NCBI GenBank assembly: GCA_947462335.1
Contig: OX381704.1
Span: 46,628,942-46,692,941, forward strand
Origin: Harmothoe impar
Lineage: Eukaryota > Annelida > Polychaeta > Phyllodocida > Polynoidae
Reading direction: 5' to 3'
DNA: 64,000 nt
Shown here: one piece after another, positions 5,710 through 48,700 of the stretch
How positions within the stretch are numbered: the first letter of the stretch is position 1
How the letters are laid out: every line of letters starts with the position of its first letter
The notes under the pieces: generated by a model
Seen by the model: the letters and a program-made list of their open reading frames with translations, nothing else
Told to the model about the DNA's origin: nothing
The model's database searches: none
Made by a program: the position numbers and the translations under genes

Positions 5710-8700
5710 GTTGGTTTTTGTTGAGATATCAATTCAGAATCCGTTGTTTGATACCCTGTCATCGAAGGCTTCTTCAACGTACAAAATTATTCCTGAAGTT
5801 TTGTGGTTGTGTTTTATGCTTTCAATTTTCAGCGGCTGAAAGGGTAGGGGGTACACCATATTGTATATCATCAAATAGGCCAGGAGCCATCAACTGTATG
5901 TATTCTCCTATATTATCGCATGACCCTTTATAAGGGTCACAAGTACCCAGCATTAATGGGCCAGTGCAGCTGAGTGCTGACACAATCATGGGCCAATGCG
6001 GCAATGGCAATGCTGGCAACGGTACTGGGGCCGGGCCGGTGCTGGCAATACGGTTCTGGCCCAGTACAGAAATGCAAATAGGGGCGACACCGGGCCAGTA
6101 CAGTGTGCCATAATTAGACCGGACCTGTTCTATCTCCGTGCTCCGTTTCTCTCCGTCCCCTAGGGGCCGACCAACTACGGTGACAACGCTGCCTAGCCAT
6201 AATCGGCTCAGTACTGGGCCTATATTGTGCCACTACTGGGCCAATGCTGGCATGCCAATACTGGCCCAGTACAGTGTGCCATAAACAGCCTATACTGGGC
6301 CAATACTGGGCCAATACTGGCCCAGAACTGTATACCAAAAATCTGGCCAGTGTAAGATGTGTAGGATACTAAAGGAATGATCAGAATGGAAACACAACCA
6401 TGATCGTTCAGTGTCACGTGTAGACTGTCCTTTTATTATCGCCCATCGTCCGTAGTTCCCTCCTTTCTCGCCAGGCGGCAGCACATACGTTACATCTCCC
6501 TTTCTTCACACTTTTTTTTTTTTTTTGAACAACAAGGAACACTGGATAACTACAGCAACATATGAAAGCTGGAACAAGATAATTTCCTGGAGTAGCTACT
6601 GAGTCAATATAATAGGCTTTGAAAATACCCTGAAAGGAAACACAATAAAATACAAATAAATAAAATCAGTCACTCAGAACTTGCACATAATAAACACTAT
6701 AAATGTCAACGGCAGTTTTTTTTTTTGTTTTTTTTTTTGTTGGTTTGTTTGTGTCACTCTTAAACAGACATATTACAGGTCAAGCCTCCTTGGGGGTCTG
6801 CTCAACCTGCCACTACTGGTGCGATATTGTGCACCCTCACTATGAACAGAACCCTCTCCGCCAGCAGGAATGGGAAGCACACCCATGGGGCTATCCACAG
6901 TTGGATGGGTGGCTTTCTTGGGCGATAGCGGCTTAGGACTTGGCAGAGATGGCATCGGGACAACCGGCTGTTGTGGTATTACATCCATTGTAGGGCTAGG
7001 GGCTACATTAGGCCTAGTCAGTTCATCCGAGGCGCCAAAACTGTTAGCTTTGTGTGTTGCCAACCGCAGATGTCGCCTGTTTCTCCTGTACTTATGCCCT
7101 TCACGATCCACTATATAGGATCTTGGTTGCTCATGGTGCCTGACAATGGTAGCTGGTACCCATCTCTTGGTTCCTGGGAATGGTGCCATTCTCACTGGGT
7201 CACCCACTTGAAGTGGTGGTAGATCTCGTGGGTGTTTAGCATCGTGATAGTGCTTTTGTGACCTTTTGGACTGATCCAAGGCCTTCCTCACCTCCTGCAT
7301 GTCAATCTGTTTTGGGTCCAACAGCTCCGTTGCTATCGGGATCATATTGCGGGGTCTCCTGCCCATACTCAGTTGGGCTGGTGATAGGCCACAACTCTCC
7401 ATGGGAGTCGTCCTATAGTCCAATAAGGCCATATATCGCTGGGCTCTGTCACTGGACTTAGCCCAAAGTCTTTTAACAGTCTGCACTGCCCTCTCGGCCT
7501 CTCCGTTCGACTGTGGGTAGTTGGGAGAAGAGGTCACATGTGTAATCTGCTTTTCGTCGCAGTACTTTCTGAATGCTTGACTTGAGAACTGTGGCCCATT
7601 GTCAGTCCTTAGCACATCTGGTAGGCCATGTGTAGCCAGCTGGCGCATTAGCGTCTCCTTTGTGGTCTCGCTCGACATGTCTGCTAGTTTGTCCACTTCG
7701 ATAAACTTAGACATATAATCCACAGTTAACAAATAGTTCTCCCCTTTCCACTCAAATATGTCACTGGCTGCCTCCTGCCAAGGACGTTGGGGTGTCGGTG
7801 TGGGACGCATTGTCTCGGCTGGCTGTTTGTTCTGAAAGGTGTTGCAGATCGCACAGTCACTGACCAAGTCTTCGATCTGCTGTGACATCCCCGGCCAATA
7901 AAGTGCTTCTCTAGCTCTTTGCTTGCACTTCGTGATTCCGAGGTGCGACTCATGCACTTGTGATAGCATCTCTGGGCGAAGGCTTGGTGGTACCACAATC
8001 CGCATACCTTTGTATACAATCCCGTCTGATACAGCTAGTTCATCTCTATTTGTCCAATACACTCTCACGCTATGTGGAACTTGCTCTTTAGTGTCTGGCC
8101 ATCCCTTTAGTATCAGATGGTATAGCTCATTCATTTCATCTGGGGTGGCTTCCTGGAAGCTACGATATCTCGTCGGCGTGACCGCGATGAAGTTGACCAT
8201 GTTAACTACTATGTGTTCAATGTCCTCTTGTTCACCAGGTAGGTTTGCACGGCTAAGGGCATCTCCCATTGGGATGTCCTTCCCTGGAACATAGCAAACA
8301 TTCAAATCGTAGGGCTGGAGGCGCAGCATCATCGTCTGGAGTCTCATTGGCGCCGCTAGTATGGGTTTCTTGAAGATAGACTGAAGCGGCTTGTGATCGG
8401 ACTCCACCAATACCTCCTTGCCGAACACATAGTGGTGAAACTTCTTACAAGAGTGGACGATGGCAAGAGTCTCTTTCTCAATCTGTGCATATCCTTTCTC
8501 TGTGCTTGTGAGGGCTCTTGAAGTGTATGCCACTGGTCTATCCTCTTGCAACAGAACACCTCCCAAAGCATAGCCAGAGGCGTCACACTGAATCCTAACT
8601 GGCTTCCGCACATCATAGTAAGCCAGTACTGGTGCGTTGCAACACAGGTCTTTTAGCTTGTCAAAGCTGCACTGTTCAGGCTCTTCCCAAACAAAGTCTG

Positions 8701-11700
8701 AATCCTTCTTTGTGAGCTCTCGAAGGGGCGCATCAATGTCACTCAGGTTAGGGATGAACTTAGAGATGTACTGCAAGAATCCCAAAAACCTACGTACGTC
8801 CTCCTTTGTCTGGGGTCTTGGCATATCTCGAACTGCCTCGACTTTGTCAGGGTCTATCTGGAGGCCCTCTGATGAAAGTATGTGGCCAACATACTTCACA
8901 CTCGATTTCTTCACTTGGCATTTCTCGAAGTTTAACTTCAGGTTCCATTCAGTCGCTCGTCTGACGACCTTTGCCATGATACTGTCGTGGTGGCTCTCGT
9001 CACGCCCTGCCACTAGTATGTCGTCCATCACTGCATATGCTCCTGGAATGTCCTCTAACATGGCATCCATTATCCGCTGATAGATCTCTGGTGCCGACTT
9101 TATCCCAAAGGGCAATCTTAGCCAGCGGTACCTTCCCACTGGCGTGTTGAAGGTCGTCAATAGGCTTGATTCATAGTCAATCTGGATCTGTAGGAAACCT
9201 GACTTGGCATCAATAACTGTAAACACCTTTGCATCTGGTATGGATGCCACAATGTCCTCTACTGCCGGTGTTGGGTAATGCTCCCGTCGAATGGCCTTGT
9301 TTAGGTCCCTTGGATCTGAACATATCCTAATTTTGTCTTTCTTTTCCACCACAACCATGGAGCTGACCCAATCAGTAGGTTCTTTCACCTTGGCAATGTG
9401 ACCATCTGCCACCATTTCTTTTAGCTTAGACACAACCTTCTCGCGCATGGAGTGGGATGGGCGACGATTCCCATGTACAACTGGTCTCACTGTTGGATCA
9501 ATCTTCAGTGAGTACACTCCTGGCAGAGTTCCAGTCAAACTCCTCAGCTCTGGATATTTGTCTATACCTCTGTCGACTGCATGTATGCGCTTGATGAGGC
9601 CCAACTCGGTACATGCCGCTCCAGACAAGAGGGTACTCTGGTCCTGTTCAGTGATGTAGAACTTGACCTCAATCTCCTGAGATTTCCACCACACCCGGAA
9701 CACCGCAGATCCGAGTAGGGGAATCGGGTGCTGTGTATATGACAGATATACACGCTTAGTGGGTCGAATGGCAGGTCTTTCTGGTATCTTATTGTATGTC
9801 TTTGCAGACATAAAGGACTTTGAAGCGCCAGTATCTAATTGCATCCGTACCTTGATACCACCAATCGTCAACTTCTCCCACCATCCATTCACCTTGTGGC
9901 TCTTCCCGTACTGGCTGCACTGCGTGCACTAGATGGGCAAATCCGACGTCAGACTCGTCACTGCTCGACTCTTCATTTGAGCGCTCGTCAACGGCATGCG
10001 CACTTTTCTTGAATGTCCTCTTGGACTTAGTGCATACCGATACAAAATGCCCCTTGCCTCTACAGTAGTTGCAAGTAGCATTGTGTGCTGGGCAGTTGCT
10101 GTGACTCGCATCATAACCACACTTTTCACACATCTCAGATTTCTGGTTACCCTTGGGTGGTTTCTCTCTAGGTGGTGCTTGCTTCTTTTTATTTTTACCG
10201 TGCTTGTCGTGTCTGACTGCGTGGACAGCGCTGTCCTCCTCCCAGTCCAACACCTGCATAGTCTCCCTTGAGGACTCATTGCTACGACCAAATGTGATGG
10301 CCATCCGAAGGGTGAGCTCCTCCCCCTTGTCAAAGCACTTTTCTTTCACAGATGCCTGACGCACTCCTATGACAATCACATCACGCAGCATCCGGTCCTC
10401 ATGAGTGGGATCATATCCGCAGTCTTTTACCAGTACACGCAGCGCCGTGACAAAATCGTCGAACTTTTCATCTGCCTTCTGCTTCCTGCGCAGGAACCTG
10501 GCAGTTGCTCTGATCTCATCTCTGAATGGCTTAACATAGTCCTCATATTTCTTGTACACTGCCTGTAAACTCTCATTTTCTGCTGGATCATCCCCAGTGG
10601 CCGGTAACCAGGTAAAGGTACTGTACAGCTCACGACCTTTATCCCCGATGAATGTCATTAAAAAGTTCACCTTCTCTTTCTCCGACTTCTTTGAAAGGGG
10701 ACCCCCAAAATGGAATGTACAGTGTTGCTTGAACCGTTGCCACTCCCTGGACAGGTCGGTAGCCTCCCAGTTCATGGAGGGAGCACTGCCGTTGGAGTAA
10801 CTTTCTGCCATCTTAACTTGAGCCTTTATACTTGCAGAATTGCAGAATTGCTCACCACTAGCTATCAGTAGGACTACAGTGCTGGAACAGGTCTGGGAAC
10901 CAACACACTCGACTAGCTAGAATACACTATATAGGCTTCACACACTTGACATATGGCACATTGACTCCTTCAATCCAGATTGGGTTCAATACTTGTATTG
11001 TTCTTGACAGCACATTGGTTACACAAAAGTTCAAGGCAGGTCACTTTGTCTTTGGGGCATCAAGTCTACTCACTGTTTCCTCAGTCTTGACAAATCCTTC
11101 ACACATCTCCTGGTATGCACAAACATCATTTCATCACTTAGCAATACCAGGTGGGTTCAACCTTCTCTCCTGTGTAGAGAAAACCACTTCTGACAGCCAT
11201 GTAAGATGTGTAGGATACTAAAGGAATGATCAGAATGGAAACACAACCATGATCGTTCAGTGTCACGTGTAGACTGTCCTTTTATTATCGCCCATCGTCC
11301 GTAGTTCCCTCCTCTCTCGCCAGGCGGCAGCACATACGTTACAGCCAGTATCAATCATACCATGTACATGTATTATGAGTTATATAATTGAGACAAAATA
11401 CATCATATTGCCACCCATTGCACATCCTGCACACATAGATAGTGTTTTAAATAAGTGACCTGTCAAACATCTTTCCTCAACTAGTTTTAACAACCAGGAG
11501 TGAAGGAGACCAATCTTATCCACATATGCCATAGCAAGCTACCAGTATAAGATATATCTTTAAAATGCAAACATGAGGTGTTTATAATGAAAACCTCTTT
11601 GTTAGCCAATAGCTGACCATATTAAATTCATAATGTTGTATTATATAGATGTCCAGTGATATCTCTTTCATCATAAACTTATTTTCAACTTGTTAAGGGC

Positions 11701-14700
11701 TCTAAAGAGGTTGGCAAAAATTGGTGATTTTACATGAAAAATTGCCAAAATCTCCTATTTTCCCCAATTTTCACCTGTTTTCACCAATTTTCAAGTGACT
11801 ATGCTTCTTTGAACAGCTCTGTAGAGCTTAATAATTGAGATATAGCTTAAATAAAAAAAAGGTCTCCAGGGAGTGACACCAAGATGTATCCCCAATCATC
11901 AAATCCTAAAAAAGTGTTCTTTTCCCATCCCATGATGCTGTTCAAAGAAAAAAAACACGTTTTTGTTCCATTTGCATTCCATAGCTTCTGAAAACTTCCA
12001 AAATGGAACTACCGTAAATTCCCGCGTACTACCCGCGGGTTGTACGCGAACCAAACTCAGCTTTCATTTGATACCAGACATGCCTATACAGGGTGCGGGT
12101 TATACGAGGGTTTTTATCACTATAGAACAGTACTAAAATATGAATTTTCAGATCCAAAAATGGGTTATAGCATTCTCCTGAGTTGAGGGTGCGGGTTATA
12201 CGCGAGATGCGGGTAGTACGCGGGAATTTACGGTAATCTGATAGAAACATTGAATATGATCAATTCGGTGTACAATACTAAGGTATAGTCTCAACATGCT
12301 GTGTCAAATTATGCATGCATGTGTGTTCATTTTGACCAACCTGTTGAGAGCCCTTAAGGCAATGTGAACCAGGATTATTGAGTAATAATTATACAGGCAT
12401 ACCTGTAATTACTGGACATCGATTCTCTGTCTCTTTGTAGCTCTATAGTGATCGATGCCCAGTTTTATACTTCAGACCAGTGGCTCATTTTGGCTGCTTT
12501 TCGCCTCACAGATTGCTCCTAGCGCAAAATCCTGACTAGGTGTCAATATATTCTCTATGCCAAAGTGTAATTTGAGGGTAGAAAACAGTGGAACCTCAGT
12601 TAGAAAAAATCCTACTGAACAGTTTTTTAGAAAATTAGGGTTTTGTTGCCTTTTTTTGCTGTTTTTAATACATTTCCTACATAACCCGTGAACGTCAGCA
12701 TTTCTCAATTTTCAGGTATTTAGAATTAGAATTTGACATTTTTTTGATCGCAGTAGGATTCCTGAATACCGAGCCATTCTACACCGGGTGTTATTTTGAA
12801 AAAATATAAATCATTTGATAGTGTATTTGGTGTCCTAAATAGAGGGAGTTAAGCCCAGAACTGCTCACAATACTCACACAAGAGGTTGATGTGACTACAC
12901 CCTCAGGTATACCTCACGTGGGGACAAAAGTTATAAAAGACGCTATGATAGCCTGTCCGAAAGCCTTCACACACATAATGGAGTTTTCACTTCTCTCAGC
13001 CTCACTCCCAACTGCATGGAAGAATGCGACCATAACCCCACTCCTGAAGACCGGCAATCTCAAAGAGGTATCAAATTGGAGGCCGATCTCCATATTACCC
13101 ATCCCCAGCAAGATTATGGAGAAACTAATTCATATTCATCTTTCACAATTCTTAGAAGCAAATAAGGCTCTCTCGGCACAGCAATATGGATTTAGAAAAG
13201 GTTTCAGTACGTCGGAAGCAGTTTATGATTTACTAGCAGATATATATAATGCCCGTAATTCTCATCAATATGTAGCATCAGTGTTTATTGACATAAGAAA
13301 AGCATTTGACTGCGTTAACCACGATATCCTTCTTCACCAACTAAAAAAGTCTGGAATAAACCGCACTGTACTCATGTGGCTACATGCTTACCTGAAAGGT
13401 AGATACCAATCCACGAAGGTTGACGGAGTGACTTCCTCCCCCAAAGATGTACATTTTGGTGTACCCCAAGGCTCAGTCCTGGGGCCTACCCTCTTCATCT
13501 TTTTTATCAATTCAGTACTCCTAAACACAGGGACTGCAAAAGCGAAGCTGTATGCAGATGACGTAGTTCTGTACACTACATCAAAATATCCAGCTGTGGC
13601 CCTCAGAAACCTACAACAAGAAGCTAATAATTTGAGCAAGAAATGTGATAACCTAGGCCTTAGTATAAACCATAATAAATCGAAAATGATGTGGTTCTGC
13701 GCTGAACACAAACGTAAAAACTGCCTGAATAGGCACCTGTATATAGGTGACAACAGGATTCAAACCACTGACACCTTCACCTATCTTGGCGCCACTCTCG
13801 ACACCACTCTCAACATGACCCCCTTCCTGAACAAAACAATAGGAAACACAAATTTCCTGTCTTTCAAATTTGGAAAGTTAAGATACCTTTTAGGAATGGA
13901 TGATGCAAAGACTCTGTTCCAGCAAGCCATCCTTCCACACTTTGATAACTGCTCCTTCATGACAGATTGTAGCACTGAAACAAATACAAAGAAGCTCCAA
14001 GTCATTCAGAATAGAATGCTCAGATGCATCCGAAATGTAAGAGTGTGGGAAGACTCAGTAGCTGATCTTCACGACCTGTGCGAAATCCCTCTCCTGGCCC
14101 CAAGGAGAAAAGAGTTACTCATGTCACTAATATTCAGTAAAACAAAGAAAAAAAAACCTATTATTACAAGACGTAGAACCAGAAACGATAACAAGCAAAA
14201 TCATAAAATCCCTTTCCCCCGCACACAAAAGTTCAAAAGAAGTCCATTATATAGAGGTCTGGTAACATGGAATAAGCTCCCAGTAGATATTCAATTAGCT
14301 GAGAGCAAACTGGTGTTCAAGAGGAAGATAAAGAAACTGTTTGGGACATATATGAAAGGGAGAAACGCGGCCGCCACGGCCAGAAGGATAAGGGCAAGAC
14401 GAGTACCAAGACGAAGAGTATAGCAGCATGGAGCTTAAAGGAAACCTGTCTAGGTTGAAAGAAATCAGGGTAAAGATATTCACCTGACCAGGTGGCACCC
14501 GTGATACCATATCAACAACTCAAAGGATAAGGGAGATGGGAAGGAACTTTTACTTTGAACTCTTTATATTCACTCATCTGTATGATATCTCACCCAACCC
14601 TGTATATATGTGATTGACTTTGACAGACTGCTCAGTTTGCAGCCAAAACCCGCTTAATCAAAATTTAAACCTATCTTCTAAACTGTATATACTGTAATAA

Positions 14701-34900: not shown

Positions 34901-37900
34901 AAAGTAGAGTATATACAGAAAATGATTATAACTTTGCAACATATAAATCATTGAAATCTCCCCTGAATCTTGAAAAACCTGAAGAATCACATCCCTAATA
35001 TTACCCAGCCCACCTCTCAATTTCCTCCATATGACGAGATACCCCCTTACTGTTCCGTACAGCCTACCCCTAATCACCAGGAACCTTGGTTATAACGGAC
35101 AATTAACAACTTACTTTAGGAGAACATTTTTGGTTTCCATACAGCATGACACTAGCATACATTATATTCCCCAATCTAACATTTAGTAACGGAAATAAGA
35201 ACAAACAGTGGTGTAAATCGGCCTGACATGACCTGCATCGAGATGAATCTCTGAAGCAGGGTGTGGCACAATTATCAGGAAAAAACCTCTATTAAATCTT
35301 TACCGAGAAAGGCATTCTAAATCCTACATAACAGGGCGGTGACACTAATAGCAATTATCTTATATAAAAGTAGTTACACAACTACATTGTATAGAGGTAA
35401 ATCCCATTTTACAATCAAAATAATGAGAGGGGGTCCTGGTTCATTAAATTGCAGCAGTGCCCATAGTGATCAAGTTAACTAAAGGAGTGGGGGCCTATGT
35501 TACTATAGAGCTATAACATTTGTGTTTTCTCTTTACATATGATGTATTGATTCAAGAGCAGAAGCAATGCTGCTGATGCTGGATGTATTTCCCATAGCCT
35601 GCAGTGCTAACGAACGCCATATTGGCCTGATTTGGAATGCACGGGTGGGTTTTGGGCGCTTTTAAGTGGAATATTTACCCAATAAGGCATACTATCTGGT
35701 TGAAACCTATACCAAATAATAGATATGATCAATATCTAAGGCCAAAAAAAAGGTTTGTTTCAGGTCACCCGACCGACCCTATCAAAAGAGGGCCGACCCT
35801 AGGTTTTTTATGCAATTTTGAAGAAATTTTCATGTTATTACCCTTTTTTGGTCAATTTTGGGGGATTCAAAAAAGTTGGGTAGTACATTCATGTTTAAAA
35901 AAATAAAATAAAATAAAAATAAAAATCCGACCTACCGACCCTACATTTTCCTCCCATGTTACCTGAAACAAACCTTCTTTTTTTTTTTGGCCTAAATATT
36001 ATTCGCGGACAAAAGGTGGAAACACTCATTATGTAATGGCTACAGTGATTTCCAATTTTTGACCTACCCCTCAAAAGCTATCCCCAATATAGTGACGATA
36101 GCGGTCATAGACGTGGCAGCGTGATAGAGGGAAACCCCCTCTCAATAAGTTGCTCACCGGCTCATTTTGTATGACTGATGTAGGAAGAAGGTGTGGCTCT
36201 CGTTTATATATTATTATTATGTATGACCCTGCATTGGTATATTGAGTTGTCTATGCTGCACGACCCCTAATTAATATGATACTAATAATAGCTAAACCGG
36301 TAGTGATTATATATGGCCAGTAATTGAGTAATAGGCATTAATTCAAGTATATTAATATACATCAATTCTATGTGCAATTATCATTGTTTAATGTCTCATG
36401 AATAGTATCTTCATATTAATCTGGCGTAAAGGCATAAGTAGTATAGTATGTATCGGAACGGGACTATAGTTAAGTACTGTTTATTACTCAATCGACCTGC
36501 AGCCAATCAGAGGCCTCCATTTGGTCACGTGACCGGAAGTGACCTACTTAGGGGATTAGTGGTGACGTCACGTGACCTAGTTAGCCAATCAGAGGCCGCC
36601 ATTTGGTCACGTGACCGGAAGTGACGTCATATGACCTACTTATGGACCGGAAGTGACGTCATATGACCTACTTAGGGGACCGGAAGTGACGTCATATGAC
36701 CTAATTTAGGATCACGTGACCGGAAGTGACCTGATGAGTCACGTGACCGGAAGTGACGTCACATGACCTAATGGCCAACCGGAAGTGAGTGACCTTATTG
36801 AGGATCACGTGACCGGAAGTGACCTGATTGATCACGTGACCGGAAGAAGAAGTGACGTCACGCGACTTAATGAAGAGATGAGCGTCTTTAAGGGGTCACG
36901 CGCTTTAAAATGTGACATCTTTTTTTTTTTTGGAGGAGGAGGAGGAGGAGGAGGAGAAGGAGAGGAGGAGGAGGTGAGTCTCTTATTTTTTTCGGTAAAC
37001 TAATAAAAAACACTACGATATAAGTTTTTGTTTTTTTTTCATTTTTTATTGTTTTACGAGCGACTGGAAGTGACTTATTGAACTAGGTAGAAGCGTTCTT
37101 TAGAGTGTATAAGGGGGGGTAGGGAAGGGGAGGGGAGGGGAGGGGAGGGAAGGGGAGGGGGGCCCCTTTAAGATGCATGGGGAGGGGGGCGCTTTTAGGA
37201 TGCATGAGGTGGGTGGGGGGGGGGGAGGGGGGGAGGGGGGGAGGGGGGCACTCTAGGGGGGTGGGGGGGCACTCTAAGGGGCTTTTGTCTCTTTTAAGAA
37301 AAAAAGAAAAGAAAAAGATTTCAATCGAGAGACACGCTTCTTCCTCTCGAGAGGAAGAAGCGTGTCTCTTCATTTTTTTTTGTTTATCACGTGCCTCGAT
37401 GAGGCGATCAGCTGCGACTGGAGGAAGTGACACTTTAAGAGGGCGCGCGTCTTAATTGTTATGATATTTTTTTTTACTTACTAATAAAGAAGACGTATGA
37501 AAATAAAACACAACAATTCACATGTCCGTCGTTCTCGTTGTTTCTTGCTTGATAAAGTCAAGTAATATCGCGATGCCGAGGTCAAACTTTCCCATGTCCT
37601 CAGTCAACACTCGAAGGAGTTCAAAAGGTGTACCGCCGGCACCGTCAGCTTCATCTTGCCACATTTTCAACACTCGGAAGGCCCACTCAGCGGGACTTCC
37701 TCCGTATTCGCATTCTTCAGCGATCTTATCTAACCTCTCAGGCGACAATTTTAAATGGTCCCCCACCTCTTTCCACCTGCTACCTAGACGTCTGCCGAGG
37801 GTGCCCAAGTGCTTATGCATCGCGCGCGAGTCGGGGTTTTCGAAATCCAACCCCTGTCTGTGGAGAAGGGACATCCACTGAGCCAACAGTTCCACGCGTC

Positions 37901-38271
37901 TAATGCGGGTGAAGACGCGACCGAGCTCTCCCCATCTATGACGATGCGGGGTTTCACCCCACCAGACTCGGAACATCGCCGTACACAGCTCCTCTGGTGT
38001 CTTGACACTGCGCTCTACTAGAGCATCCATACGGGCGGCGGTAACTTTTAAGCTACTGCCCAACTCTCTCCAACAGCCGCTCAACTCTTTACCTAGTTGA
38101 CGAAGCAAGGCGTCGCTATAGGCTAACCGCCGCTGTCCTACCTCTCTGTTCTCCCCATCGGTCTGCCTCGCGCGTCTCACGTCGTCAAGCCGCATTAACT
38201 TTTTTTCAGGTGGACAAGGCGGTGAAGGCGAGCTTGAAAGTGGAATAGCTTGAGCCATCTCGTCTCGTCTT

Positions 38272-38303
<32 letters not shown>

Positions 38304-39740
38304 TGGTGGTAGTAGACGTTACTGTGGTCAGAGGCGATATGGTTTTTTTCCAACAGAAATCAGAGCTTTTATACAGAGGGAGTTTAATCCCATTTCCAAC
38401 AGCACTCCAGCTGTCTAGCGACCTGTCCGCATGACGCTTTTTCAGCCGCTCCGCTCCTTAAGAGCTTAGATGACGAGGGGTATGTCATCGCTATCCGTGG
38501 AGACCAGCTGAAAACGGTGTTTCTTCCTCATCCATAGCCTTACCTCCTACCCCCTACCTGAGGACGTCTCCCTCCCTCTGACATTCATTGTAACAAACGT
38601 CAGAGGTCAGGTGAAAATCGGATTTTTTTCATGCACAGCCTTAGTCAGCTGTCACCCCTCCCTATTGAACTAGCCGGCCGCCGCCTGGCCGGCCCGGTCT
38701 ACTCACCACGGCAGGAGGTGGTGATTTTTTTTTGTCTTACACTTAAGTCGCTCACCACATGCACACGCCTCTACTCACAGACAGACACGTTCGTCTTAGG
38801 GGGGTCCTGCTTCACGCCACACGCCTCCTGTAGTTTTTTTTTGTATACACACTCTAAGCTCATCACCGTTAATCCTTTATACAGCTAACGCGCGCTGAAT
38901 GGCTGAACAGGGTGGTAAGTGGCTTAGCTCATGACAGTGGATCCCTCAAAAAAAAAGAGGGGAAAGGGATCCAGCTGAAAATGTCATACCTTATGTCTTT
39001 GTGAATGGCCGCCGGTCAGTCGACGGCAGCAACCGCTTAATCCTTTATACAGCTAATGCGCGTTGAATTGCTGAACAGGGTGGTAAGCGGCTTAGCTCAT
39101 GACAGTCGATCTCTCAAAAGGGGGGAAAGGGATCCAGCTGAAAACGTCATGCCTTATGTCTTTTGTTTCTCTTTGTGAATGGCCGCCGGCCAGCCGGCGG
39201 CAGCTGAACAGGGTCAGTAAGTAGCTTAGCTCTAGAAGCGAGAAGGCGTATATAAGGGGCCTGGAAACCTCCATTCACTCACTCATTCTTTTGCTGCTCT
39301 CTACAGTCACCACCATGAGCAAAAGACAACACCTAGCGCCGTCCAAGAACAAGAAGACTACGCGGAACAGCGCTCGTTTAGCGTCAGTGCCTCCTCTTGC
39401 TACTGAAAATGAGACTACCGCCGCAGCCGCTTGGTCTTATCACCCTCCCGCTGTAGCGAGCGCTCGCGGCAGTAGTAGTAGTAGTAGCAGTAGTAGTAGC
39501 AGTAGTAGTAGTAGTAGTAGTAGTGGTAGTAGTACTACTGGTAGTAGTCGTCGTGCTAGCGACGTTGTTACACTCGCGACGGTACACGTTGCTGCTAAGC
39601 GCGCTGCCGCTGCTACTGCCGCCCCGCCTGCTGGTGATCCTCGGGCTGCGGCTGCTGCGGCTGCTGCTGCTGCTGCACCTGCTACCGCTGCGCCTGCTAC
39701 CGCTGCGCTTGCTGAGGCTGCTGCGCTTGCTACTGTTGCG

Positions 39741-39772
<32 letters not shown>

Positions 39773-42700
39773 ACCTGCTGCTACCGCTACTACTACTGAC
39801 GACAACGCTCCTGGCACAGCGCAGTACTGGCAACCGGGTTTTTACCTCCCCACTACTGTTGATGACTTTGATGACCTGCCGCACGTTGCACAGCCCCTCT
39901 CCTCCACCACTACATCGACCGACGCCCTCGACGCCGCTCGCGCTGAGAGTGACAGCTATTCGGACACTCAGCCCCTAAACCGAGAAGAAGAGGAGGAGGA
40001 GGAGGAGGAGCAGCAGCAACAGGGTGAGACAGAGAACGACGCTGACGACGAGGCGTACGAACAACCCGAAGGGAAAGGGGTGGGCGGTACGTTTTTTGGC
40101 TCCCCTCTTCGACCTTTCGACCTCACTTCCACTAGTAGCGCCCCGTCCGGTCCGTGGCGACTGCCCTCACCGCCACCTTACAAGGGCGGCGGCGCTTCAT
40201 CTTCTACCGCTACACTCAGCACCGACGGCGTGTGGCTGCTCTGTTCCAACAACGAGGCCTCGGATACCACCAGCGCTGACGCTGCTCCTGCTATCGGTTC
40301 TGCTGCTGATTCAGCTCACGCTGATGGTGTTACTCATCCTGCGGGTGTGAAACGTTCTAAGGTGAGTTCCAGAACAACAAGGCCTAGTAAGAAGAGAAAA
40401 ATACAAGAAAAAGAACGAGATGGACGAGAAGAAGCAGAGAAAACCTTCTCCCGTCTTCTCGGGTTAGAGTTCTGCTTAGACGGAGCTTTGACGCTGGAGA
40501 TCTGGGAGGACGTGGCTAGACTGTCTAGGAGGCCGCGCTACACAAAAGACGGCCAGGTGAAAGAGGCGTCTCTGACCAGAAGCAAGCGAGTGCACTTCAC
40601 GGCCGACGCGCTGCGCGAGCTAATAGCACGCATCGCCGATATCCGCGCAGTGGTGCGCATACGCGACACAGCGGCCGCGCAAGGAAGACCTAATCACACC
40701 CCCTGGTTCGCAGTGCTGGATGAGGAGGGCGAAGTGTACGCAGCTGTGAGCTACTACAGCGGTAAGAACCTCGTCCACGTGCGCAAGTACGAAGGTCCTG
40801 ACAAAAAACCCACACAGCAGGGAGTGACGCTGTCCGCCAGAGCGCTCAAAGAGTTGGATGACAAAACAGAGATCATTCTGAAATATCTCGGCATAGATTC
40901 GGAATGAGAGACGCTCAACGCTCACGCGCGCACACACACACACACACAGCGTTTGACGTACGCTGTATGAGACAGACAGACGGATACACAGACAGCAGAC
41001 AGAAAGATAAATAGATAGATAGATAGACAGATAGATTGATAGATAGATAGATAGTTAGACGGCTAAGTAGTTGGTAACTGAGTGAAAAAAAACATGACAC
41101 AGTACGTATGCGAAAAGTGTTTCAAAATGTTTAAAAGACCGTACAACCACGAGAGACACGTAGAAAATTGTAGAGTAGTACCTAAGTTTTGCCCTCTATG
41201 CGGCGAAGGCGATTGCCGAAAGATCGCCTGTCGACGCGAATCTCTGGACGGGGTGACCGTCCCTCCGCGCATATGTGCTGTACCGAACGGGGAGGAAACG
41301 TTCACGGCGAATTGGCCTGCGATACAAACGGGCGTCAGGATGCACGGGACTCGCGTGAGTGTAACAAACTTCAGGCTACCAACCGGCGAGTTGAGTGACG
41401 CTGTAGATACTATGCGTCGCATTCACTTGACACAAAGATTCAGATACAAAGTGGGTTTCTCGGTAGGCTTACTCTTACAACACAGAGAAGACAAGAGCAA
41501 ACTGCGCTACTTTCACGCCTCCCAGAACAACGCAACTCTCATACAACCGCTCCCTACTATAACTAATTCAGAAACTTTGGAAGAGCTCCTCTCAAAGATG
41601 GAAAACACCGTCGCTTGCGAGGAAGTACGGAAACTTTGCGACGCTGACACCAAGTGGCACGTTCTTTTTCCTACCAATTTGAACATTTGCGTTTACATGG
41701 GACCGGGGGAATTCCCCATAGGCGGTAGGATCACTCAGGCCGGTCGAGTTGGAAAGAGAAGCGGCGTGTTAGATTTTCCCAACAAGGACAACCTCTGCAT
41801 CTTCCGCTGCATTTCCTTTCACTTATACAACACCAGCAAGCGCGCTTCAGATTTGTTACGTCAGTTCTGTCCCGCTGCCACACCTGAATCCTTTCCGGGT
41901 CTGAACATCCGCGACTTACCCGCGTTAGGGAACTTGTTTGACGTACAGATAGCGGTTTACACCGCGTCGCGTTAAGTGCCGGGGCGGAAGTTGAGAAGAC
42001 GCGTTACTCTGATCAGACCGCCTTCCAGAACTCTGGCCGCCCGAGGTAAAGTCAACCTACACCTGACGGCGAAAGGCGGTTTGCACGTCTCTCTCGTCAC
42101 GGACTTCAACGTGTACGCGGGCATATACGAATGTTGCAAGTGTAAGGCGGCGTTCACCACCGAGTTCTTGCTGAAGAGACACAGGAACCAGCTTTCCTCT
42201 TGCCGACAAGTCAAGTTGCGCTACGTAGGTGGCATCTACCAAAATTCGAGAACGATTTTCGAAGCGCTAGCAGACTTCTCCATTTTTCCCCCCGACGGAC
42301 ATTCCGGAATCTACCCTTACAAGATCGCCTTCGATTTCGAGGCTTTCTTCAGACCGTGCAAAGAACCGTCGACGGAACACGTGTCCCTGCTGTGGGATCA
42401 CGTCCCTTTGTCGGCTAGCGTCGCATCCGACTTTCCGGGGTGGGAGGGGCCCGTCTGCTTCGTCAGAGAATCCGACGCAGATTCCGACCCCTTGTTGGAC
42501 CGAGTTTTAAATCACATAAACGAGAACGCCAAAGTCATCGGGGAAGCTGTGCTAGAACTTTACCGACCGACCTTAGCGAAGTTAGATGCGGCGATAAGTG
42601 AAGCTCTCCTGCTGGAGGAGGCGACATTCACCCCTTCTCCAGGCGGCTTCGCTGCGGCTCAGACCAGACACCCGTTAGTTCAACTGAAGAAGCGTCTTCT

Positions 42701-45700
42701 GAGATACATCCGTCAAGCTCCAGTCGTGGGCTTCAACTCGGGGCGTTACGACTTGAACCTGATCAAAATACGCCTTCACTCGTTCTTCGCCTCCGGAGAC
42801 CGAAGAAACCAAGAATTCAGCGTCATAAAGAGAAGCAATCAATACTTGGCGGTTTACACACAGCACACGGTTTTCTTGGACGTAGTCAACTATTTGGCAC
42901 CCGGTTACAACTACGCGACCTATTTGCGAGCTTTCACCAGGAACGAAGAGAAAGGTCACTTTCCTTACGAATGGATGACGTCTACCAGGAAACTGGCAAA
43001 CAGAACGCTGCCACCGAGATCGGCTTTCGACAGCGAGCTGACGGGCGTCAAAATGTCCGAATCCGACTACGCCGCATGTCAGAAAGTTTGGTCCGACGAG
43101 AAGATGCAAACTATGGAAGACTACTTGATCCACTACAACAACAAAGACGTCAAACCTTTCATAGAAGCTCTGAAAAATCACGCTAAATTTTTCCAAGATC
43201 GCGGCATTGACATGTTGAAAGACGGAGTTTCTCTCGCCGGTTTGACTTTACGGTTCCTCTTCCAAAACCTTGAAGACGCGTTCACAACGTTCCCCCAGTT
43301 CGACGCCGTCCTCCACGCTCTGATCAAAGAAAATCTAGTCGGCGGTCCTTCCATCATCTTCCATAGATTTCACGAGAAGGGCACCACGCGGATAAGGGAG
43401 CACAAGTACGGCGAAGAAGCGAGACCGTGCCAACACATCCTAGGACTAGACGCTAACTCTCTGTACTTGCGCTGCATGAGCGAAGCGCACTGCACGGGCT
43501 ATTACGCGGTGAGACGGCCCGAGACCGAGTTCAAGCCCGAAATTAGGCAAAGAAACTCTCACAGCGCTTTGGAGTGGTTACGCTTCGTAGAGCACGACCG
43601 CGACGTGAAACTGCGCCACGCTTTGAACGGAGGCGAGATGGTTGTAGGCTGTCGGAGAATTCGCGTGGACGGGTTTCACGCGGCCTCTAATACGGTTTTC
43701 CAGTTTCACGGGTGTTGGTTCCACGCTCACGAGTGCATACCGTCGCACCGATATCAGTGCGCTTCACTGAGAGAGGAGAGACGCGACAGAACGACCAGAG
43801 TAAGCGCTTACTTGAAAGCGCTAGGTCACAAGCTGGTCGTCGTGTGGGAGTGCGAATGGCGAGAGATGAAGCGTCGAGATGAGCGGGTCAAGGCCTCCCA
43901 ACAACGCTGGAAGGTTGACGCTTTGAAAGTGTCTCGAAACGCGATGAGCGAGAGCGACATCCTTTCCGCTGTGAAAGAGGAGAAAATGTTCGGTTTAGTT
44001 CAAGTGGACATCACTACGCCGCCTCACCTACGAGACTACTTCGAAGAAATGACCCCCGTTTTCAAGAACGCGACCGTTTCAAAATCGGACATAGGACCTC
44101 ACATGTCAGACTTTGCGCAGGAAGAAAAGCTGTTGAACACGCCTCAGAGATGTCTGATAGGGAGTTACCACGGAAAAAATATTCTCTTGGGAACGCCGCT
44201 TCTCAAGTGGTATTTAGAGCACGGTTTGATAGTCACCAAAGTGCAGCTGGTGGTAGAATACCTACCTAAACGCTCCTTTGCCGGTTTCGCGGACGAAGTA
44301 ACGGCGGCGCGAAGACGTGGCGACGTGAACGAGAACGAGAAAATTCTGTCAGACTGTTACAAGTTAATGGGAAACGCCACGTACGGTAAAACAATCTGCA
44401 ACAAAGAAAAACACACGGCGGTGAGATACACTGACAGTCGGAAGTTCGAACTATTGGCCAATTCGTGGCGCTTCAAAAAGGCGTCCGAGTTGAGTTCCGA
44501 TCTGTTTGAAGTCGAACTACAACCGAAAACAGTCAACAACAACCTCCCTATTCAAATAGGGTTCATGGTATACCAGTACGCGAAGTTGAAAATGTTAGAG
44601 TTCACATACGACTTCTTGGATAGATTCGTCGATCGGCGCGATTATGCCCTTTGTCAAATGGACACCGACAGTCTTTACATGGCTCTCAGCGGTGACACGT
44701 TGGATGACCTAGTCAAACCTCGCCTGAGAGAGACGTACTTCAGAGAGAAACGAAAGTGGCTTCCGACAGCGGTGTGCGACGATCACTTAGAGCTTTTCGT
44801 GAAGACAAAAACGGAAAGAGTGCGAGAATGGTGTCCGCCGCCCGGCGGATGTTGTGAGAGACGGTACCTTCACGATCTGAGAACTTCGGGGCTTATGAAA
44901 GCGGAGTGGGAAGGTGACGGGATCCTAAGTCTCAACCCTAAGACTTACATTTGCTACGATCGAGTCAGCGACACCGGTGAAAGAAAATCCAAAAAATGGA
45001 GTGCAAAAGGCGTACAGAAGAAACAAAACCCTCAGGAACCAGACGACTTCTTGGATGTTCTTCGCCAACGAAAAACTCTCATTGCTGTAAATAGAAACTT
45101 CAAAGTGGTGCGAAACAAAATGGTCACCTACACCATAGAGAAAGACGGCGTGCGCTACTTGTATTATAAGCGTCGCGTGCATTCTGACGGTGTGACAACG
45201 AGTCCTTTAGAGATATGAAAAAAAATAAATAAGCGTGTGCATCTTTTCAAAAATAGAGTGTTTATCAAGATTGAAAAAAAAAGAAATAAAAAAAATAAAA
45301 TAAAATATTGTTGTGTTTTTATTTTCATACGTCTTCTTTTACTAGTAAGTCGCGTAGTCTCTTAAAGCGTCACTCATGTGACGACGTCGCTTCCAGTCAC
45401 GTGATCCTAAAGACCCTCACTTCCTAAACAAAAAACTTCTTCTTCCGCTCACGTGATCAATCAAGTCACTTCCGGTCACGTGATCCTCAATGAGGTCACT
45501 CACTTCCGGTCGGCCATTAGGTCATGTGACGTCACTTCCGCTCACGTGACTCATCAGGTCACTTCCGGTCACGTGATCCTAAAGACCCTCACTTCCTAAA
45601 CAAAAAACTTCTTCTTCTGCTCACGTGATCAATCAAGTCACTTCCGGTCACGTGATCCTCAATGAGGTCACTCACTTCCGGTCGGCCATTAGGTCATGTG

Positions 45701-48700
45701 ACGTCACTTCCGCTCACGTGACTCATCAGGTCACTTCCGGTCACGTGATCCTAAATTAGGTCATATGACATCACTTCCGGTCCCCTAAGTAGGTCAGTAG
45801 GTTACCCAGAATGCACCACTAATCCCCTAAGTAGGTCACTTCCGGTCACGTGACCAAATGGTGGCCTCTGATTGGCTGCAGGGTTACCCAGAATGCACCA
45901 CTAATCCCCTAAGTAGGTCACTTCCGGTCACGTGACCAAATGGAGGCCTCTGATTGGCTGCATGTCGATTGAGTAATAAACAGTAGTTAACTATAGTCCC
46001 GTTCCGATACATACTATACTACTGGCATATACAGTGACAACGTACTAACAGAGACTACATGTACCAGTAGCTCTGCATGATTTCCACATACGGCTTACCA
46101 CCTTATTCAAATCTCTATATATACTACTGGCAGACCTCTAGACTACTAGACCCCACTCCTCAGCCCACTAGCCAAGGTCCTGAGAGATATTGCCACGTTC
46201 TACCCATAGAATAAGTCATATTTCCATATACTACTCACATACTCAGGCACATTTCCATATACTACTTACATTACGGAAAAGAGTATATTTCCATATACTG
46301 CTCACACACTAAGGCATATTTTCATACACATGTACTATTTACAGACCGCAAATTCTCGAGTATAAGCCTAACCATCATATAAGCCACAGCCCTCACTTTG
46401 GAGATTACTATAAGCCACACCTCGGCCCCAGGGGTATGGAACAAACCCGTGGAAAACAACTTGACATAAGGATGACCCATTCTCTCCCATAGTATGCCCA
46501 TCTGCCCCTGTTCTGCCCAGAATGGTGCATTACTATCCCAGATCAAAACATGGATATTATTAATAGCATGACATTGGCATCAGCATTGACATGGACACAT
46601 GTCTGATTTCCTGTAGCAGATAGTCAGGGCCGAATACATGCAACCTGCAACCAGCCTGTCCAGCAGGATCTCCGACTGGGAGCCCCCTCTGATGCAGCCT
46701 GTCATCTGGATGAGTTTGGGCAGATCCTATAATCCACACTGCGGTTCTGATTGGCGTAACCCACGGCGTATAAGCAAGCTTTTACGATACAAAATGTATT
46801 TACAAATTATCATAATGATACTCAACTAGGCAACTCCCTTACAATCATTGGTCAGGTAAGACTGGAACCCTCTTGTCCAACATGGACAGATGCAGAAAGG
46901 TACAGATTAAAGATACTTTATGGAGTGGTCAACAGGTAAGGGTCGGAGGTTTTCTAAGCCCCAAATTTGTCTTTTAAGGTGGTTGAAGAATGTGCCTGTA
47001 TAGATGCGGACTGTGTGCTGCACGGGGACACACCCTTCTACCCTCTAGCCTGTACCTTTGCTGGTTCCCAGAAAATAACCCCCCCCCCCACACACACACA
47101 CATACAACCAGCTAATTAATCCCCTTGCCTTAATTGTTCCGTCCCATCTATTGACCTCCCCCCCTTCATCCTTGGTATCCGTCCCCGTCTCAATGTCTAA
47201 CAATGCTGCTGCATCCCATGCACCCAGCTCCCACCCACCAGCACACCTCTTTCCTGTTACCTGCCGGCTCCCACCCACCCACCTGTGGTACCTCCTCCTC
47301 CGTGTGTCCTCCAGTCCCCAGTTGCTGCCAGCCTCACAGCGCGGCAGGACCTAGGTACCTCAGGTGTACTACCAGCACCGTGGAGGAAGAGCATACCGCT
47401 TCTACCTCATGGAACAGGGCACTAGTAAAGGTGAGTGACTGCTCGGCTCATTTGAGGTGCACACAGCTTATCAATGCTGGGTAGATAGGTGGTCTCTGAC
47501 ATGGGTTTATAACATATACAGTAACACTGACTTTGGTAGATTTTGTGGGTAGGTGGGTTGGTAGGGCGGGATGGTAGTTGATTCAGTTTTTGAGGGCGTT
47601 CAGCACACGTCCGATGTACCACTACACATGTAATGGTATTTCTCGGGCCGGCTGTAACATCATCACAACTGATAATGTAACCAAACATAAATATCAAAAT
47701 AAGCATTTGTGAAGCTATTAAGTGCATTTTTTTTAAAGTACATATTGTCACTAATTACATGAAATAAATACAGATAAAAACTTATCTCCACAGCTCCGCC
47801 GTTTGAGCTATTTTCATGAGCATGGGGAATCGCACGGTTTACTAATGTAGCACTTTCTGCCAATACAACTAAATATACATTTTACATATTAAATCAATAA
47901 GATTCTGTATCAGGCAACGCGAAGACAGTATATAGCTGGAAACGCTAGCCGTAAGTAGGATAGTGCCCTTTGATAGGGTCAGCTCTGATGCTCACAGGCC
48001 GTGGGTGGTAAGTTAGAAATGAGGATAATCCGACATGGCCTTTACACTCCACAGGTGGATGTATACAACTTTATTATTACACAAAATAGGCTAAGCGGAC
48101 ACGCAGAGACAAATCCTCTATCCCCCCCAGGGAGGCAAAGTTCAGATGAGCTTACTACGCTAAACATAGGTCCTGGTTATTATCGGATATATTGTAAATT
48201 GGTTGCTATGGGATGTTAATTTGTTCAATGTTGGGAATCGGTTGCGTTAGGAAGATCACTTTTAGGAATTCTTTCTGGGGGACATTCAAGTTTAGGAATT
48301 GGTTGATATAGAATGTAAAGCAGGGAATTGGTTGCTAAGGAACATTCAATTAGTTGCTAAGGCACAATGCCACATCCAATGTTGAGCATTGGTTGCTAGT
48401 TGATGTTAATGTTAAGCATTGTGCAATACTGGAAAGTACTAGAATATGTATCAAAGTACCATTTCCAGTACTAAAATTGGTTTCTATCTAGATCAGACCC
48501 CTTGCTGAGACTTTAAATATACATTCACAATATCAGAGGCGTAAGTAGCCATAAGTATATGCCACCATTGGAGCTTCCCAATCTCTGGGAGATAACTCTG
48601 TACACAGGTATAGTGGTCAGGTGGCTACTTAGCATGGCTGAGAGAAGACATCGATCCCCATTACCTGGTAACCTTGTCCGGCCCATCTGTCCCTCTGTGT

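Follow-up and report, generated by a model that had tools for sequence, protein, structure and literature searches.

The stretch analysed here, referred to as the window, comprises 64,000 nucleotides of the polychaete Harmothoe impar (assembly GCA_947462335.1, contig OX381704.1, positions 46,628,942 to 46,692,941 of the forward strand). It contains a Polinton-type element of 9,587 bp at positions 36437–46023, whose ends, read directly from the letters, are AGTAGTATAGTATG...CATACTATACTACT, that is, AGTAGT...ACTACT. The element encodes a B-family DNA polymerase, a PC4-like protein and a double Death-domain protein. It belongs to a numerous genomic family that shares its ends with a second, separately inserted element of about 10.5 kb, on which the integrase and virion-type genes are found. 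The two are called segment 1 and segment 2, and further elements with the same ends are designated types 1b, 3, 4 and 5. The features of the window copy of segment 1 are the following.

36431–36436: left copy of the 6-bp target duplication GGCATA (read directly)
36437–36853: left terminal inverted repeat, the outermost ~98 bp of which are common to segment 2 and type 3
37518–38258, minus strand: double Death-domain protein, 246 aa (Pfam Death 2.7e-7, two stretches)
39249–39255, plus strand: TATATAA word upstream of the PC4-like gene (read directly)
39315–40907, plus strand: PC4-like protein with a low-complexity N-terminus and a Pfam PC4 match near the C-terminus
41082–41975, plus strand: N-terminal piece of the polymerase frame, with a zinc-finger-like start and DNLCIFRC at residues 236–243 of the piece
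41976–45218, plus strand: main piece of the B-family DNA polymerase (Pfam DNA_pol_B_2 3.1e-7)
43686–43916, plus strand: Vsr-like endonuclease stretch inside the polymerase (main-piece residues 571–647)
45607–46023: right terminal inverted repeat (sequence comparison)
46024–46029: right copy of the 6-bp target duplication GGCATA (read directly)

A preliminary description of this DNA, made from its letters alone, had recognised a Polinton-type element by the GGCATA duplication, the AG termini, the long inverted repeats and the polymerase. Direct reading and Pfam searches confirmed this: the window element presents a 6-bp duplication, the AGT/ACT motif, long inverted repeats and a B-family polymerase of the viral/organellar type, and it lacks an rve integrase, a capsid protein, a packaging ATPase and a protease. 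The three-gene content also stood, with the PC4 match below the Pfam cut-off. As to the missing genes, the element has 62 stop-to-stop frames of at least 55 aa, the four gene frames included; ten of the larger leftover frames gave no relevant Pfam match to an integrase, capsid, ATPase or protease, and the integrase, capsid-like, ATPase and protease proteins of the same genome gave no tblastn match to segment 1 at E 1e-4. The complementarity of the arms is 98% for the outer pair (36437–36564 and 45896–46023) and 96% for the inner pair (36664–36853 and 45607–45796). Words of the types CCAATCAG, CACGTG, CCGGAAGT and TGACGTCA are arrayed in the terminal repeats (window 36496–36853 and 45386–45962), and the right arm contains tandem duplications of 172 bp and ~82 bp. 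The arrays resemble a promoter array, the words being possible transcription-factor sites. A DNA search with a 228-bp part of the repeat returned 0 matches and was uninformative, since it also missed the copy in the window.

In the window copy, one in-frame stop divides the polymerase into the pieces 41082–41975 and 41976–45218; in the relative P0004 (99%) both parts are joined in one frame of 1,375 aa. The polymerase has 669 database relatives, with named ones in Pomacea, Branchiostoma and Holothuria. Motifs located in the main piece are assigned to the exonuclease and palm domains. The Vsr-like stretch matched a PHROG endonuclease (4.3e-6) and Vsr in PDB (E 0.015). The ~295 aa that precede the main piece, DNLCIFRC included, gave no Pfam match to a terminal-protein or vOTU profile. 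By analogy, this N-terminal piece is compatible with the first two of the terminal-protein, vOTU, exonuclease and palm domains that the excerpted text of PMC11071308 ascribes to polinton polymerases. IMG/VR scans gave 2 pattern matches with the polymerase piece and 58 with alignment A2, among which no relative was confirmed.

The PC4-like protein, searched from residue 2 on, fell below the family cut-off (E 1.2e-4; 22.0 against 25 bits). Its single database relative is 73% identical over the C-terminal 200 aa, where two PC4-like repeats are possibly present; an AlphaFold model of this end, with two sheet-then-helix units, was too poor to use (mean pLDDT 47.6). The TATATAA word at 39249–39255 may be the promoter of this gene. 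The Death protein has database relatives of 100, 78 and 55% identity and a weak PDB match to the death domain of RIPK1 (E 0.012); its AlphaFold model was likewise too poor to use (mean pLDDT 42.0).

The genome searched comprises 1,511,831,793 bases in 736 contigs. The exact 37-bp tip of the element occurs 10,412 times in it (5,195 forward and 5,217 reverse; reversed control, 0), and an exact 41-mer marker of the polymerase occurs 1,919 times. If most elements have two tips, there are an estimated ~5,200 of them, all types pooled, which would occupy ~49 Mb or ~3% of the genome. Many copies had been named beforehand as the sign of a real lineage, and a unique internally deleted copy as the finding that would speak against one; since the exact polymerase marker occurs so often, the window element is not a unique deletion.

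Intact copies exist, as seen in lists of the best-scored candidates, which do not give the intact fraction: the Death frame is 100% identical and stop-free at 150 of 150 scored places (3,960 first-look candidates), and the polymerase frame is uninterrupted at 31 of 34. The same left tip, with differing flanks, lies beside 28 of 30 Death-frame loci; L017 and L018 have no tip within 3 substitutions. The right end was sought in 20 of these 28 copies, leaving out L015, L022, L026 and L028, which are absent from the coordinate table, and L025, L027, L029 and L030, which were not fetched. In 14 of the 20 copies it was located, 9.08–10.28 kb from the left tip, and 13 of these 14 two-ended copies, the window copy not counted, have a perfect 6-bp duplication, each of a different sequence. 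The family is recent: 29 copies, chosen for an identical Death frame, differ from the window copy by a mean of 0.70% over ~531 non-coding bp. One copy, L026, shows a tandem end duplication, with two left tips 145 bp apart.

The second element was found through the tips themselves. The first 100 tips listed (contig C1, 0–5.26 Mb) form 42 adjacent plus/minus pairs, 27 of them 8.7–9.9 kb apart, 11 at 10.34–10.54 kb and four larger. All 11 pairs of the 10.34–10.54-kb class have perfect 6-bp duplications, and two interiors of this class, L058 and L059, differ by 12 mismatches over 7,018 aligned positions. Together with its flanks L061 and L062, L058 gives one whole copy of segment 2 (~10.5 kb), with these frames, all on one strand.

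Protease, 213 aa
Capsid-like protein, 434 aa
Frame of 112 aa
Minor-capsid-like protein, 372 aa
Integrase, 378 aa
Frame of 396 aa
Frame of 110 aa
ATPase, 239 aa

The integrase matched Pfam rve (3.6e-13) and, below the cut-off, chromo (1.5e-3); its residues D149 and E184 are spaced by 35 residues. The ATPase matched Adeno_IVa2 (7.8e-5) and, below the cut-off, Pox_A32 (4.3e-4), and the protease, of the adenovirus type, matched Peptidase_C5 just at the cut-off (2.3e-4). Counterparts are present in ordinary Polintons of the same genome, with E-values that refer to a very small set of eight proteins: 2e-33 for the capsid-like protein, 4e-55 for the integrase, 7e-42 for the ATPase, 4e-9 for the 110-aa protein and, weakly, 1e-4 for the minor-capsid-like protein. 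Among best-scored candidates, the integrase is identical and intact at 109 of 109 places (6,694 candidates); its exact marker has 224 matches genome-wide.

The ends of the two segments, compared directly, are 89% identical over 128 aligned positions, gaps counted; type 3 elements are 98–100% like both over the outer 98–102 bp, and the other types have at least the exact 37-bp tip in common. Inside these ends, the sole match between L058 and the window element in a sensitive blastn comparison was one of 188 bp at 74%, between the Death and PC4-like genes. The gene sets are complementary. Polymerase, PC4 and Death queries gave no tblastn match to segment 2 at E 1e-4; among the elements tested, these three genes occur on segment 1 only, besides diverged polymerase and Death pieces on type 1b, and the integrase, capsid-like, ATPase and protease genes occur on segment 2 only. 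Integrase, ATPase, protease and polymerase are all present when the two same-ended segments are considered together, and neither segment by tblastn carries all core genes on one DNA element.

The two segments are also inserted apart from each other. Of the 15 integrase places on C1, two fall outside the range of the marker list and were not counted; the other 13, all below 107.1 Mb, are each separated by more than 76 kb from the closest of 100 exact polymerase markers. The polymerase marker falls inside none of the 11 pairs of 10.34–10.54 kb, as matched by eye. Relatives of 15–20 kb with the same ends plus integrase and capsid had been suggested as evidence for a deletion derivative. No 15–20-kb element with both gene sets was seen in the material examined from the 42 pairs, a census that is not genome-exhaustive; neither set is present in the 15.9-kb pair, of which the whole was read, or in the 13.2-kb pair, of which all but 3.4 kb was read, and the pairs of 40.9 and 94 kb are unread.

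Several other types share these ends. Nine of the 27 pairs of 8.7–9.9 kb are segment 1 (assigned by eye, eight by the polymerase marker and one by a Death match), and centre probes of the other 18 revealed eight of type 3, two of type 1b and eight of types 4/5. The 6-bp duplications match in 11 of 12 pairs of these other types, that is, in nine of ten of the probed 8.7–9.9-kb types and in the 13.2- and 15.9-kb pairs. The latter two are of type 3, and their interior, as far as read, is unlike either segment. These two pairs have in common a repetitive frame of 446–476 aa, the type 3 marker of which occurs 955 times in the genome, often twice per copy; one of them contains a reverse-transcriptase-like frame, recognised by eye (L086:2-1486), and the other a unit of ~1.1 kb in about six head-to-tail copies (L060:2497-8513). 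In types 4/5, no frame longer than 111 aa was found in the ~7.4–7.5 kb read from each of two copies. The loci L090–L092, L095, L103 and L125–L128, with the same ends and a size kept at 9.2–9.7 kb, have no long frames in the parts read. Types 4 and 5 were at one point taken as different segments, which was ruled out by their flanking stretches, one family in two orientations. The type 1b elements L088, L099 and L129 (9.8–9.9 kb) carry pieces of a polymerase and a protein whose N-terminal parts are 52–62% like those of the PC4-like gene product and whose C-terminal end is a double Death domain (Pfam 1.4e-10). It looks as if a Death domain was transferred from one gene to another here. The idea that type 1b is a diverged segment 1 was dropped, the part read consisting of polymerase pieces and a Death end on a PC4-like protein.

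We propose that the window element is probably the replication segment of a multipartite Polinton, with segment 2 as its integration and virion segment and with satellites of similar size. The wider picture, to which we give about an even chance, is that of a chromosome-integrating virus or transposon of Polinton type with segments of ~9.5 and ~10.5 kb and satellites limited in length by the capsid, one with a double Death domain attached to an N-terminus like that of the PC4-like gene and others with no long frames, in thousands of copies. Segment 1 would supply a polymerase of the protein-primed type, the PC4-like protein and the double Death-domain protein; segment 2 would supply the integrase, protease, capsid-like proteins and packaging ATPase. 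Since the outer ends are common to the segments, one polymerase and its terminal protein could start replication on every one of them, one integrase could insert them all and produce the 6-bp duplications, and a single capsid could hold any of them. The two segments would complement and depend on each other. PC4 proteins bind single-stranded DNA, and the PC4-like protein is likely a single-strand binder in strand-displacement replication; the double Death-domain protein likely interferes with host death-domain signalling. A packaging limit may set the length of the elements, in keeping with the fact that coding and non-coding members are about equally long, 38 of the 42 pairs measuring 8.7–10.5 kb.

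Several observations weigh against this proposal. The size limit is only suggestive because segment 1 itself varies from 9.1 to 10.3 kb and relatives of 13–16 kb exist. In six of the 20 segment-1 copies, the 1.5 kb read did not contain a right tip, and the two flanks of one type 3 pair do not match. The exact integrase marker is present in two of the 11 pairs of 10.34–10.54 kb, the same two whose interiors were read (L058 and L059, one of them end to end); among the ten non-reference pairs, the ends are closest to segment 2 in nine (93.7–99.6%) and not in one. With nine interiors unread, this class may combine intact copies of segment 2 with a diverged sister and with derivatives. Pfam matched neither of the capsid-like proteins nor their ordinary-Polinton counterparts, and PDB sequence searches up to E 1 gave nothing relevant for the larger of the two or for its relative in an ordinary Polinton, so that these proteins are called capsid-like for their mutual similarity, the setting of their genes and features known of such proteins. 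An intact single-piece element with these ends may exist, the census having covered the first 5.26 Mb of C1. The two-way split is known from this genome alone, and all the evidence is genomic sequence.

By the exact markers, segment 2 is also about 8.6 times rarer than segment 1 (224 integrase against 1,919 polymerase markers), and it may be an ordinary helper of which segment 1 is the parasite. In this alternative, which we consider rather unlikely, segment 1 is a derivative that still has a polymerase but is moved by segment 2, or else by an intact single-piece Polinton that has these ends and is rarer; the elements would then be a helper and its parasites and not co-operating parts of one genome. 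The same-ended elements without long frames in the parts read, the retention of mere polymerase pieces in the part of type 1b that was read, and the occurrence in this genome of genes of ordinary single-piece-type Polintons would all suit a helper with parasites. However, segment 2 lacks a polymerase in the form read and so cannot be a self-sufficient helper; the ordinary Polintons, although their ends were not located, give matches of at most 31 bp to the non-coding parts of the window element; and segment 1 has kept three genes, unlike most parasites. The preliminary description had offered a derivative mobilised in trans, and a dependence of segment 1 on a helper is very probable.

Complementary halves of a Polinton gene set, and the broken polymerase of the window copy, could also be left by recent internal deletions of one ancestral Polinton of 18–20 kb, both segments now decaying and functionless. 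This is improbable, as 31 of 34 polymerase frames and 109 of 109 integrase frames are open among the best-scored candidates, the segment ends diverge inside the outer ~98–128 bp, and the database relatives of the segment-1 genes, at 55–78% identity, are open. Less probable still is that segment 1 is a virion-free linear replicon comparable to cytoplasmic linear plasmids, and segment 2 is unrelated but for borrowed ends. Segment 1 alone has no virion gene, and in the excerpted account of PMC11071308 such plasmids arose from polintons that lost their morphogenetic module; yet the thousands of chromosomal tips with matching 6-bp duplications call for an integrase, and an intact one is present in the genome on a same-ended element. 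The earlier suggestion of a lineage that dropped its virion genes and lives as a replicon is probably wrong, the genes being located on a same-ended partner with a like duplication.

The proposed multipartite Polinton can be compared with several known systems. Non-autonomous derivatives of DNA transposons have the ends of an autonomous partner and rely on it, whereas here the gene set of each partner, as read, is incomplete. Intact Mavericks are 15–20 kb long. Cytoplasmic linear plasmids are not known to be chromosomal or to have integrase-made duplications. In being a PolB replicon without virion genes, segment 1 is like these plasmids as they are presented in the excerpted PMC11071308. The vertebrate Mavericks, in the sections of PMC8097293 considered, have the 6-bp duplication, the (AGT)2//(ACT)2 motif, inverted repeats and B-family polymerase that are found here, and segment 2 adds the rve integrase, packaging ATPase, adenovirus-type protease and capsid-like proteins; unlike in this genome, where they are on two separately inserted same-ended elements, the core genes of intact Mavericks in that paper are on one element. 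The set of PolB, integrase, capsid, protease and FtsK-type ATPase is also that of the Adintoviridae; in the excerpt of PMC8363768, however, the Drosophila-associated adintoviruses 1–3 (13.3–14.6 kb) are single contigs, and that text mentions no PC4 or Death gene.

A Polinton-derived PolB is shared with the Bidnaviridae and Vesanto virus, according to the excerpts of PMC4061559, PMC8363768 and PMC11071296, and many putative segments of Vesanto virus, perhaps up to 12, have similar inverted terminal repeats in the portion of PMC8363768 considered. As those same excerpts describe them, they are ssDNA viruses with a parvovirus-derived capsid protein, whereas here the partner has Polinton-type genes with a Polinton-like capsid-like protein, and both segments are chromosomal.

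Polintons are regarded as single-piece self-synthesising elements, and their known split-genome relatives are the bidnavirus-like ssDNA viruses. No split Polinton was found in searches of the openly accessible PMC literature, most subscription papers being outside this scope. If the proposal is true, thousands of datable chromosomal insertions would make it possible to trace how multipartite genomes, which otherwise occur in free viruses, evolve; 'incomplete' Polintons elsewhere could be segments whose partners nobody looked for; and there would be a model for the entry of Polinton polymerases into segmented bidnavirus-like viruses. The Death-domain genes point to animal death and inflammation signalling as a target of Polintons.

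As for the ordinary Polintons of this genome, the one at C20:8.888-8.911 Mb (L051, L054, L056, L057) carries ATPase, integrase and capsid-like genes and a polymerase over two frames, and places on C21 and C8 are 99.6% identical to it over 3.4 kb. A second, different type is present at C5:18.267-18.2705 Mb (L055), with ATPase and integrase frames; a place on C13 scores equally. Neither was seen to be a same-ended relative, although their own ends were not located: when ~23 kb around the C20 locus and 3.5 kb of the C5 locus were compared with the non-coding parts of the window element, just short matches of up to 31 bp resulted (E 0.007 or worse). Outside the element, the window contains a retrotransposon frame with reverse transcriptase, RNase H and integrase matches at 6773–9928, and a separate reverse-transcriptase frame at 12843–14423; one ordinary-Polinton integrase query also matched the retrotransposon integrase in this left part of the window.

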